64,000 bases of DNA from Vreelandella sulfidaeris. Lineage in GTDB: Bacteria > Pseudomonadota > Gammaproteobacteria > Pseudomonadales > Halomonadaceae. The DNA lies in NCBI GenBank assembly GCA_007182875.1, contig AP019514.1, positions 868,001 to 932,000 of the forward strand, read 5' to 3'. The notes under the pieces are model-generated. The model did no database searches, was not told the DNA's origin, and was given only the letters and a program-made list of their open reading frames with translations. The position numbers and the translations under genes were made by a program. This document shows positions 16,438 to 61,605 of the stretch, one piece after another. Position 1 is the first letter of the stretch, and each line of letters starts with the position of its first letter.

Positions 16438-16926
16438 TTAGCTGTTATCGTCGACATCGATAGCTTCACGAGTGCGTTGCCAAGCGCTTTCCGCACCTTC
16501 TTGGGTCGTTTGCCAAGCATCACGAGCATTGGCCTTGGTCTGTTCCCACCAATCATTATTATAGGCAGGCAAAGCTTCTATTTCTTCCTGGCTGGCTTCG
16601 ACCATAATGCGATGTTCAGTATCGCCATCGTCTTCGGTATCCGTTTCGAGAGTGAAGTAATCGGTATCCACTACGATCTCACGCCCACCTAAGCCAAGCA
16701 CGTCACCGCTTTCGATGACAATCGCGCTAATACGCATCTCTTCGTCAAACAAGATGTCATCGACTTCACCGATCTCATCACCGGAGCCGCCAGCAAAGTA
16801 GACTTCAGCGTCAAGAATGTCATCAGCAGAGTACATGCCTTGCGGTTCATTAGACGCATGGGCACCCATTGCAAAGCTACCTAGTAGGGTGGCACTAATC
16901 GCGGTTGTCAGAATTGTCTTACGCAT
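16438..16926 (-). CDS. Secreted acidic PRC-barrel domain protein
   Basis: Intact 162-residue protein. Residues 1-25 form a signal peptide (LLGSFAMGAHASNEP, cleavage after HAS or nearby). A PRC-barrel fold follows (MYSADDILDAEVYFAGGSGDEIGEVDDILFDEE in parts: GDEIGEVDDILFDEEMRISA), then a Trp-rich helical tail (WWEQTKANARDAWQ). It is very acidic, which fits a halophile periplasm. Family members are structural or stress-related; no enzymatic function is implied. Close to and co-oriented with a CsbD-like gene upstream (49 bp), so likely one stress-responsive unit. Confidence 0.85.
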   Translation of the reverse strand: MRKTILTTAISATLLGSFAMGAHASNEPQGMYSADDILDAEVYFAGGSGDEIGEVDDILFDEEMRISAIVIESGDVLGLGGREIVVDTDYFTLETDTEDDGDTEHRIMVEASQEEIEALPAYNNDWWEQTKANARDAWQTTQEGAESAWQRTREAIDVDDNS

Positions 16927-16974
16927 AGCATCTCCATGTGGCTACGATAAATAGTAAAAATGGCTTGATAGCTA

Positions 16975-17173
16975 TTACTGACGATCAGCCCAATCATCGG
17001 CTTGACGTTCGGCTTCCTCGCGTTCAAAACCATACTTCTGCTGCAGCTTACCCACTAACTGATCTTTTTTTACCACCGATCTGATCCAGTTCATCGTCGG
17101 AAAGCTCACCCCAGCTAGCGCGGGCTTTGCCTTTCATTTCTGTCCATTTACCTTCGATTTGATCCCAGTTCAT
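16975..17173 (-). CDS. CsbD-like stress protein (YjbJ family)
   Basis: Small hydrophilic protein of about 65 residues: starts MNWDQIEGKWTEMKGKARAS and continues GELSDDELDQIGG, then DQLVGKLQQKYGFEREEAE. These are the CsbD repeats. A 7-base T run (plus strand, around 17065-17073) appears one base too long and shifts the frame at GGKK; corrected, the protein runs to 16975. The family accumulates under general stress; molecular role unknown. Confidence 0.85.
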
Positions 17174-17359
17174 TGCATCACTCCTTGAGATTCGTGAACT
17201 TGATTAGGCACCTCTTAGGTTAGACCATATGTGTATGAGTGCAAGTCCCTGATTCAGTATGGTGCAAGTTAAAAGGCTGGTCAGGAGCAAAATACGATGT
17301 TAGGATGCGCGCTCCTCGCATGTGTTGACCCCTCCATCACGACGATAAGCGTTTATCTG

Positions 17360-17401
17360 TAATAGTTATTAATAAGCACTACTACATATTAATAGTTATT
17401 A
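17360..17401 (+). repeat. Two copies of TAATAGTTATTA, 30 bp apart
   Basis: Identical 12-mers at 17360-17371 and 17390-17401, each near-palindromic (TAATA-GT-TATTA). They sit in the AT-rich promoter zone just before the structured helicase leader and may be operator or promoter elements. Confidence 0.6.
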
Positions 17402-17709
17402 GCAGTGTCGCTTGCGGGAACATCTCGCCAATTGCTAGATGTTCATTGCTGTGAAGATGGCGCGCCTCCAGTATTTCACCACACGGGTGAAATCGGCGCA
17501 GAAGGTCGCCACAACGGTTGGCCCGCTAAGGCGGTGCTTGCCAACCGGATGCTAGGTGCGACCGGCGTCTCCGACTCCATTGATGGCTTTGACCGCTTCG
17601 GCGGTGCCTGTTTTCGATAACGACCACATTCATGTCGTTTGGCGATAACAGAGTCAGAGACGCTCACGATGTTTTTGCCGGTACTTACCGGCCTACCAAG
17701 GTGTGATTA
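17401..17709 (+). promoter_or_regulatory. Long, highly structured 5' leader of the DEAD-box helicase gene
   Basis: About 310 bases filled with helices: GAACATC/GATGTTC (17418-17424/17438-17444); GCGCC/GGCGC (17462-17466/17495-17499) enclosing ATTTCACC/GGTGAAAT (17473-17480/17486-17493); GGTCGC/GCGACC (17504-17509/17558-17563) enclosing CGGTTGGC/GCCAACCG (17515-17522/17540-17547) and CCGC/GCGG; ACCGC-TTCG-GCGGT with a UUCG tetraloop (17592-17605); ACGAC/GTCGT (17620-17638); and GCCGGT/ACCGGC (17677-17692) ending 17 bases before the start codon. No reading frame explains it. It resembles a regulatory RNA leader; the ligand or regulator may be the helicase itself or temperature. Confidence 0.7.
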
Positions 17710-19424
17710 ATGACCTCGACTTCTGTCGCCTCGCCGAGCTTCGGCGATCTGGCCCTTTGCCTGCCGTTCTGTCTGCTGTTGAATCCCAGGGCTACCTCGT
17801 TCCCTCGCCGATTCAAGCACAAACCATCCCCGCGCTGCTTGAAGGCCGCGATATGCTGGGCCAGGCCCAGACGGGTACCGGCAAAACCGCAGCGTTTGCA
17901 TTACCGTTACTGTCACGTTTAGAACTGACTCGCCGCGAACCGCAAGTGCTAGTAATGGCGCCGACCCGCGAGCTAGCTCAGCAAGTAGCTGCCTCGTTTA
18001 GCAAGTATGGCCAAAACCTCAAAGGTCTCGAAGTAGCGACCCTTTGTGGCGGCCAAGAGTACCGTGAACAGCTTGGCGCCCTTAAGCGTGGCGCACAAGT
18101 GGTTGTGGGTACCCCGGTCGTATTATCGACCACCTGGATCGCGGTAGCCTCAAGCTTGATGGCCTCTCTGCGCTAGTGCTGGACGAAGCCGACGAAATGC
18201 TGCGCATGGGCTTTATCGACGACGTAAAACGCGTGGTTGCCGATACCCCGAAAGATGCTCAGCGCGTGTTCTTCTCGGCCACGTTGCCGGCTGAAATTGA
18301 ACGCATTGTTAACCGCTACTTGGTTAACCCTGTGAAAGTCGCCATTGAATCTAGTACCACGACCGGCGAAAACATTGAGCAGCGCATTGTTCGTGTTGAT
18401 GGCGGTGCTAAGCTCGAAGCCCTATCCCGTATTCTTGAAGTTGAACCGGTCGATGGTGCCATCGTCTTTGTACGTACACGTGCGGCCTGTACCACGCTAG
18501 TTGAGCAGTTGACTGCCCGTGGTGTTAACGCTGCTGGCCTGTCGGGTGATCTCGACCAAAGCTTGCGTGAGCGTACCATTACGCGCTTGAAGCGTGGCAA
18601 AGTCGACGTGCTGATCGCCACGGATGTGGCAGCTCGTGGTCTTGACGTGTCGCGTATCACCCACGTCATTAATTACGACCTGCCCCAAGATGCGGAAGCC
18701 TACACGCACCGTATCGGCCGTACTGGTCGTGCTGGTCGCAGTGGTATTGCCATCACCTTTGCTGGCTTCCGTGAAGGCCGCAAAGTCGGCTGGATGGAGC
18801 AGGCAACCGGTCAGAAGATGACCGAAATGGCGCTGCCTGACGAAGCCGCTATTCGTGCCCATCGTGATGAAGTCTTTCATCAGCGTGTCACTGCCTCCTT
18901 AACCAAGGGGTGCAGAAGAGCAACGCGCGCTGATTGAACGTCTGATCGAAGAAGGCCACGACCCGATCGAGCTAACCTGTGCGTTTGCTGCGATGGCGCG
19001 CGCTGATGAAGCACCGATTGGTCGCTTACAGGCACCGCGTAAAGAGAAGCCCTCGCGTGATGGCGCTCCTGCCGGTAAGCCGGGTGCACGCCGTGAACGC
19101 ACTAGCGGTCCGACTGAAGGTATGACGCGCTACCGCGTTTCCGTCGGTCATAAAGATGGCGTCAAGCCGGGCCAGTTAGTCGGTGCTCTCGCCAATGAAG
19201 GTGGCATCGAAGGCGCACGTATCGGCCGTATCGATATCCGCAACGCTTTCTCTGTCGTGGAACTGCCGAGCGGCTTGCCCTCGACGATTCTGACCAAGAT
19301 GGCCCGTGCCCGTGTGGCCGGTCGTCCGCTGGAAATCAGCGAAGACAGCGCACCGGCTGAACGCGCACCGCGCCGTCGTCGTGATGAAGGCGATGCGCCG
19401 GTTCGTCGTCGCGAACGCGCCTAA
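17710..19424 (+). CDS. deaD: ATP-dependent RNA helicase, DeaD/CsdA-like
   Basis: DEAD-box helicase of about 571 residues acting on structured RNA (ribosome assembly, cold adaptation, mRNA decay). Motifs in order: Q motif (PSPIQAQTIPALLEGRDML), Walker A AQTGTGKT, PTRELA, the DEAD box in VLDEADEML, SAT (FFSATLP), VFVRTRAACTTLVE, ATDVAARGLDV and HRIGRTGRAGRSG. The C-terminus has a DbpA/CsdA-type RNA-binding fold (MTRYRVSVGHKDGVKPGQLVG) and a basic Arg tail. Start ATG at 17710 follows AAGGTG by six bases and gives the usual MTST...FGDLAL opening; three breaks (about 17755, 18115, 18905). Preceded by a long folded leader and followed by a strong terminator, so it is monocistronic. Confidence 0.92.
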
Positions 19425-19481: not shown

Positions 19482-19515
19482 CGCCCCCGCACCTTCACTG
19501 GTGCGGGGGCGTTTT
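19482..19515 (+). terminator. Rho-independent terminator of deaD
   Basis: CGCCCCCGCACC pairs perfectly with GGTGCGGGGGCG around a TTCACT loop, followed by TTTTA. Confidence 0.92.
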
Positions 19516-19576
19516 ATACCTTATGCACCAATCATTAGAGTGATTGTTCTTCAGAAAGGTCTTCAGGGAGGATGAT

Positions 19577-61136: not shown

Positions 61137-61276
61137 GATGCCTCCGGTGGTAATGATCCGGAGGTAAGGCGAGAAAGATCGAGGAAATGGCGCGGAAGGT
61201 GGCGTGCGATCGTAAGAGAGCTAGCCAAGGCCATCGCTTGATCCCTACGCCGGTACCCGCGCCGCAATTCATAAAG

Positions 61277-61371
61277 CAGCGCATTAGCCGGATCAGGTTC
61301 AGCGGGACCAGCGCTCGGTAGCCAAAAGCTCACCCTGCGCCATCTCAGCCGGATTTCACCGGCACCCCGTC
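61277..61371 (-). promoter_or_regulatory. TPP riboswitch (thi box)
   Basis: On the minus strand the conserved elements appear in order: GGGGTGCC near 61370-61361, CTGAGAT near 61347-61341 and GAACCTGATCCGGCTAATGC at 61301-61282, the thi-box signature. It lies about 140 bases upstream of tenA, so thiamine pyrophosphate should repress tenA-thiC. Confidence 0.95.
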
Positions 61372-61605
61372 AAGCTGTTCGTTGATGGAGTGTAGGAGGC
61401 GGTTATGGGAGATGCAAGGGGCTGTTGAGCCTTATGGTTGCGGCGTTGCATCTTGATATTGTGGTGTACGCTAAGAATCGACGTATTTTCCTATCGCTAG
61501 AGGGCATAACTTTAAGGGGCAACGACAGTCATGTATTTGGTACTTTTTATTTCCGGCATCGTGTAAAAATACTTTTAACCAAGAGTGAGGGAGATAGTAG
61601 CCGTA

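Follow-up and report, generated by a model that had tools for sequence, protein, structure and literature searches.

It is believed that cells meter DEAD-box RNA helicases by way of the helicases' own mRNAs, and to our knowledge few leader RNAs are known for such self-metering. A precedent is the leader of E. coli deaD, where DeaD reportedly regulates its own expression. In cspA-type cold-shock mRNA leaders, structure surrounds the start of a gene that is associated with cold and encodes an RNA-remodelling protein, the cspA leader itself being a physical sensor that refolds. Autogenous ribosomal-protein leaders are a further known kind of regulatory leader, of which the L20 leader is an example.

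The leader described here precedes deaD in the window, that is, the whole 64,000-nucleotide stretch of Vreelandella sulfidaeris DNA that was analysed. Like the E. coli leader it stands before a gene for a DEAD-box helicase, broadly of one type with DeaD of E. coli, and helicase feedback would be the natural hypothesis. Matches of our covariance model near a helicase are confined to Halomonadaceae among the sampled genomes (under strict filters). It resembles cspA-type leaders in being structured around the start of a cold-associated RNA-remodelling gene, and differs from them in having no Rfam match at threshold and no temperature-dependent alternative fold in start-site accessibility predictions. 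With autogenous ribosomal-protein leaders it shares multiple arms, an invariant core and a place before the gene that it would regulate; unlike them, its core has no sequence likeness to 16S or 23S rRNA beyond 9-nt matches, which speaks against rRNA mimicry at the sequence level. BLAST gave two 11-nt matches (E 0.51), both in the 16S flank and outside the 16S gene. The bacteria that carry it are grown in culture and have industrial uses, and the leader is well defined comparatively (covariation, invariant core, frozen codons), so feedback of a helicase on a defined RNA fold is directly testable here.

A conserved multi-arm fold precedes deaD

The first-pass annotation, made from the sequence of the window, had placed a highly structured leader at 17401–17709. 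The 309-nt segment folds at −125.1 kcal/mol against a mean of −104.8 (s.d. 4.84) for dinucleotide shuffles (z −4.19), and none of 100 shuffles was as low. Taken alone this excess is suggestive; the comparative evidence for the fold is stronger. The nested junction at 17504–17563 is exact, with GGUCGC/GCGACC enclosing CGGUUGGC/GCCAACCG and CCGC/GCGG, and the UUCG-capped stem at 17592–17605 is present as well, its loop lying inside a variable stretch of the P4 arm in relatives. The leader thus stands as annotated, except that its interval was too narrow: the conserved element overruns both ends, from about 17313 to about 17753.

Each of 13 helices, named from the window's own sequence, was tested on 121 distinct rows of a MAFFT alignment against 200 simulations keeping the tree and the per-column change counts. 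The features of the leader are listed below; percentages are standard pairs in relatives versus the mean of this null.

17313–17338, plus strand: 26-nt conserved block TCCTCGCATGTGTTGACCCCTCCATC, a candidate either for the leader's 5′ end or for a promoter/operator of deaD
17418–17425 with 17437–17444, plus strand: P1 hairpin; 80.0% versus 58.5 (s.d. 6.8), p ≤ 0.005; 8 double-change events
17452–17460, plus strand: unpaired TGAAGATGG, its GATGG near-universal
17462–17466 with 17495–17499, plus strand: P2a of the P2 arm; 99.3% versus 91.8 (s.d. 5.4), p ≤ 0.005
17473–17480 with 17486–17493, plus strand: P2b of the P2 arm; 92.5% versus 52.1 (s.d. 7.4), p ≤ 0.005; 13 double-change events
17504–17509 with 17558–17563, plus strand: P3a, invariant outer helix of the junction
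17515–17522 with 17540–17547, plus strand: P3b; 86.4% versus 56.4, p ≤ 0.005; 15 double-change events
17523–17526 with 17531–17534, plus strand: P3c; 70.6% versus 45.8, p ≤ 0.005
17549–17563, plus strand: conserved strand ATGCNAGGTGCGACC, part of the P3 junction 17504–17563
17564–17571 with 17657–17664, plus strand: P4a; 99.5% versus 89.1 (s.d. 5.2), p ≤ 0.005; 10 double-change events
17573–17577 with 17651–17655, plus strand: P4b; p ≤ 0.075
17592–17605, plus strand: P5, the UUCG-capped stem in the variable interior of the P4 arm (17564–17664); 77.4% versus 49.9, p ≤ 0.005
17672–17676, plus strand: U tract separating P4 from P7, partly conserved; it appears in the consensus of the 122-row alignment
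17677–17682 with 17687–17692, plus strand: P7 hairpin; 96.8% versus 90.4 (s.d. 4.1), p ≤ 0.025

Seven of the 13 helices (P1, P2a, P2b, P3b, P3c, P4a and P5) exceeded all 200 simulations, which, being a test of named helices, is a weaker kind of claim than an unrestricted scan against the same null. P7 followed at p ≤ 0.025, P10 at 0.065 and P4b at 0.075; P8 and P9, near the start codon, had no covariation support in this tree-based test. P3a is identical in all 121 MAFFT rows and in all 73 rows of a model-fitted alignment, and because it never varies it can show no covariation. The unrestricted scan of all pairs (APC-corrected G statistic, tree-based null) returned no pair significant at E < 0.05 over 81,810 pairs; without gappy columns the best pair reached E 2, and predicted-structure pairs made up 6 of the top 60. 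Two clades dominate the alignment.

From 45 diverse picks, alignments of 36 and 40 rows were kept, the rows left out being mainly those with long insertions (L063 was also left out, without that reason). GATGG is invariant in both. Among the 40 sequences, 87.4% of the helix cells are paired, versus 27.5–40.8% when slid by one to three columns, and double changes occur at 24 of 31 pairs (shuffled mean 14.0, as high in 0 of 500), including 13 of 13 in the P2 arm. Across wider genera, 44 pairs are standard in 91.6% of cells over 73 rows, versus 65.7% (s.d. 2.3; maximum 70.5) in 300 simulations, in an alignment that was fitted to the model and so leans toward structure; the MAFFT alignments were not fitted to structure. 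These 73 rows remained of 93 after removal of minus-strand self-matches, a duplicate genome, and partial and off-position matches. Relatives therefore do conserve the structure, with pairing kept in seven named helices, and the leader is almost certainly a conserved, functional RNA fold.

One further resemblance was noted within the element: the core strand ATGCNAGGTGCGA (17549–17560) is similar to the start-site strand CCAAGGTGTGA (17694–17706), possibly as a decoy or a shared binding site.

The leader is probably neither a small gene nor an intrinsic terminator

The earlier statement that the leader lacks a coding frame holds in substance: of 122 sequences, counting the window, 92 lack a stop-free frame in the region of 17405–17620. 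In the window itself, a 71-aa GTG-started frame does span these positions. Among relatives, the spacings between invariant leader letters change in steps not divisible by three, and together with the stops this makes a small coding gene unlikely. An attenuator built on an intrinsic terminator fared no better, with one terminator-like match versus 1.1 expected, in the variable arm. The U tract begins 7 nt behind P4a, so the GC stem does not lead directly into a T run; 84 of the 122 near leaders and 22 of the 40 far ones have at least four T in the last 60 nt, and 115 and 28 of them, respectively, have a CGG..CCG-like hairpin (P7).

A conserved block marks the upstream end

The 26-nt block at 17313–17338 exceeds most of the leader in conservation. 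It occurs at 153 of 162 loci, 312–480 nt before the start codon (≤6 mismatches), and 23 of its 26 positions are at least 94% identical. With ≤3 mismatches allowed, five of six genomes have one match each and the controls have none; the sixth genome, G047, has no match at this setting, its block being found only at the looser one. The block is kept despite a different upstream neighbour (L335 and L337 versus L338 and L339), and since it persists beside a different gene it probably belongs to deaD. A plain −35 box is an unlikely identity for it, as TT is replaced by AA in L152, L155 and L210.

Its CCATC is complementary to the GATGG of the leader core (17456–17460); both are nearly invariant, so covariation is uninformative about their pairing. 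The genes upstream of deaD vary by genus. In the window they are a 162-aa minus-strand frame and a small frame that we take to be CsbD-like (16438–17175), and at L335, L337, L159 and L208 there is an upstream frame with DADACPR, presumably UPF0178-like.

The element is found across Halomonadaceae

DNA searches with the leader matched 24 of 38 genomes (its own included), each of the same genus, and 218 of 250 genomes of the family, in 18 of 24 genera, some of the weaker family matches possibly resting on the coding end of the query. The near set comprises 121 loci plus the window (122 sequences). Its conserved blocks lie at about 17296–17340, 17437–17535, 17548–17578, 17646–17668 and 17671–17760, and between them both length and sequence vary.

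A covariance model, R1, recovered the element before deaD in further genera, short forms included. Of 28 family loci, 21 matched it clearly before deaD, 4 matched weakly or in part (L193, L202, L210 and L211) and 3 did not match (L196, L204 and L208). It also matched L148, L149 and L152, and stayed below its firm threshold at L155–L158 and L160/L161. Adding 40 far loci to the 122 near ones made a set of 162, in which one genome is counted twice (L152 and L212). GATGG, a mere 5-mer, is present in all 162 leaders and in 8 of 21 regions upstream of deaD that lack the element; GGTCGCC is present in 160 of the 162 and is followed by GCGACC in 156. Both GGTCGCC and the start signature are absent from all 21 of those other deaD loci (L164–L184, from family genera g16, g18 and g37 plus 12 loci of other families), which stand outside the family counts.

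A scan of GTDB contigs with an exact pattern found at least 118 stretches. Among the 80 matches listed, 79 belong to Halomonas (which we take to be Halomonadaceae), Vreelandella, Billgrantia, Salinicola, Litchfieldella or Carnimonas, the last five being Halomonadaceae by taxonomy look-up (Vreelandella per NCBI). The deaD start signature follows within 260 nt, by pattern, in 76 of the 80 listed; two of these run off the record, and at L240 the frame breaks before the helicase letters can be checked. The signature is recognizable by eye, with variant letters, at L252 and L276, and L291 is cut by the record end. The one other listed match, in a Xanthobacteraceae MAG, is due to chance; it overlaps open frames and has no helicase start behind it.

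In 244 genomes of the order and 369 of the class (family members included), the covariance model with strict filters found no match near a helicase outside the family. Four weak matches outside it (19–21 bits) and two secondary matches in one family genome are at loci without helicase motifs or start signature, and were rejected. Strict filters can miss diverged copies: family genomes G051 and G071 were missed in the order search, their leaders being found weakly otherwise. As far as these searches reach, the element is present in most sampled Halomonadaceae genera and so far only in Halomonadaceae.

Known RNA families did not account for it. In Rfam 15 no family reaches its gathering score on the leader, and 17000–17900 has only two sub-threshold eukaryotic matches; the window's sole match at or above a gathering score is a TPP riboswitch elsewhere (RF00059, minus strand, 61225–61379, 66 bits). 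No such motif was found in the main text of four surveys of structured bacterial RNAs (PMC8632094, PMC11109978, PMC2864571 and PMC6429828), two of which mention helicase in other contexts, and literature searches for a motif of this kind turned up none among the papers listed. The earlier suggestion of a real structured RNA element, possibly of a new family, gains from the helix-wise covariation, the position before deaD and the absence of an Rfam match at threshold.

Constraint continues into the first codons

The start site and the coding start behind it hold the following features.

17698–17712, plus strand: Shine-Dalgarno sequence AAGGTGTGA and start codon ATG 17710
17699–17702 (AGGU) with 17713–17716 (ACCU), plus strand: possible P8, pairing part of the Shine-Dalgarno sequence with codons 2–3 in local prediction; covariation p 0.22
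17710–17753, plus strand: deaD coding start with P9 and P10, under probable RNA-level constraint
17717–17720 with 17725–17728, plus strand: P9, predicted
17731–17737 with 17741–17747, plus strand: P10 (UCGCCGA/UCGGCGA), with a possible 3-bp extension (17728–17730 with 17751–17753)
17710–19424, plus strand: deaD, DEAD-box RNA helicase gene (NCBIfam models), its frame broken in the assembly

The gene starts at ATG 17710 behind AAGGTGTGATTA. The near loci had been picked for their likeness to these very positions, and far loci were required to contain GGTGTGA; with that selection, 121 of the 122 near leaders and 36 of the 40 far ones contain AAGGTGTGA, and 121 and 40 of them, respectively, contain ATGAC. 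In folds predicted for ten sequences (full leader, 37 °C), the mean unpaired probability of the Shine-Dalgarno sequence is 0.24–0.38. The leader barely alters its accessibility in eight of the ten, so no clear switch is visible; in L140 and L085 the site is more open with the leader. No long-range pairing of the leader to the Shine-Dalgarno sequence was apparent in these folds.

Synonymous sites of codons 2–13 are nearly frozen, the commonest codon making up 79–100% of its amino acid. Relative to codons 21–80 of the same gene, the mean Neff ratio is 0.47 for codons 2–16 (that is, fewer synonyms) and 0.63, 0.74 and 0.86 for codons 17–30, 31–50 and 51–80 (codons 2–16 versus 17–80, Mann–Whitney p 2.4e-5), in 115 of the 121 distinct sequences after indel rows, duplicates and the window (frame break) were left out. 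Constraint near the start of a gene can have general causes, and the reference here is deaD itself. P10 is kept with other letters in three genera, and in L204 and L208 a C–G to U–A change alters two amino acids. L159/L161 and L163 carry different hairpins at the site, and L152, L210 and L211 (two genera) none. P10 is nearly invariant, and its formal pair test was not significant (0.978 versus 0.891, s.d. 0.077; maximum 0.985 in 500). Of 25 coding starts folded against synonymous randomization, 4 were at or below 5%. These observations suggest a regulatory RNA that extends past the start codon, into a coding part that surveys restricted to leaders would cut off.

Proposed role of the leader

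Two marks of a cis-regulatory leader were found: conserved helices with compensatory changes (in the named helices), and the same gene at a fixed position behind the element across species. Selection at the RNA level argues that the leader is transcribed. A multi-arm fold (P1–P5 and P7) lies directly before deaD, and constraint runs through the ribosome-binding site into codons 2–13; the order of arms, U tract, hairpin, Shine-Dalgarno sequence and constrained codons points to control at translation start or decay, not to an intrinsic terminator. The leader probably controls the amount of helicase made; we propose that it does so at the start region, by governing either the access of ribosomes or the decay of the mRNA. 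The signal would be DeaD itself: free helicase would bind or unwind the leader and lower its own expression, and deaD expression would rise when helicase is scarce or when a condition such as cold stabilises the structure. The feedback step is proposed because of the gene's identity and the E. coli precedent, which autoregulation would fit and which makes it plausible. We put a cis-regulatory deaD leader acting on translation or decay, with DeaD feedback as its likeliest input, at slightly better than an even chance. More tentatively, and with more doubt than confidence, the multi-arm leader, the 5′ block and the first-codon hairpins might together form a new RNA family, one helicase-gated switch around the start codon. 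If so, an RNA helicase would meter its own activity by how well its own message is opened.

The invariant core could also mean a ligand other than DeaD. The near-invariant GAUGG, GGUCGCC and AUGCNAGGUG look like a binding site, and two helices flank a U tract that is conserved in part. The leader might then bind a small molecule or another protein (RNase E, Hfq, CsrA or a ribosomal protein), with deaD merely the regulated gene; yet the model matches a single place in the window's genome, at deaD, and neither a ligand pathway nor an Rfam match at threshold points elsewhere, so we regard this reading as unlikely. A sensor of cold or ionic strength, in which the leader refolds and changes deaD translation without DeaD, is in our view distinctly unlikely. 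deaD is listed as a cold-shock gene in E. coli, a short local helix is predicted to pair most of the Shine-Dalgarno sequence, and predicted pairing of the AUG goes up from 37 to 10 °C in all ten sequences with the full leader, as it would for almost any structure. No conserved alternative fold was found when sought through start-site accessibility, however, and the invariant core letters exceed what a melting helix needs. That the constraint acts only on DNA or on coding sequence (a promoter, an operator, an overlooked small gene), with incidental helices, is very improbable: the upstream block is highly conserved and may act as DNA, and the unrestricted scan was negative, but compensatory changes across seven helices, the slid controls, and the stops and frame-breaking spacings all weigh against it. 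A cis-regulatory leader that answers to DeaD remains the reading that we favour.

The deaD gene and its surroundings

NCBIfam DEAD-box helicase models match the pieces of deaD below their whole-protein cut-offs, as expected since the pieces are fragments. Compared with relative L035 over 17701–19255, the frame is broken by three single-base indels (17753–17757, 18115 and 18907). The genome assembly is of 4.48 Mb and 74.6% complete. Assembly error is the likeliest cause of the indels; it is odd that two assemblies share a break, the first indel (a short run of T lacking one T) being common to L240 (Halomonas olivaria TYRC17), which is only 90% identical. Just behind deaD, at 19483–19516, a long GC-rich inverted repeat followed by TTTTAT has the appearance of a strong intrinsic terminator.
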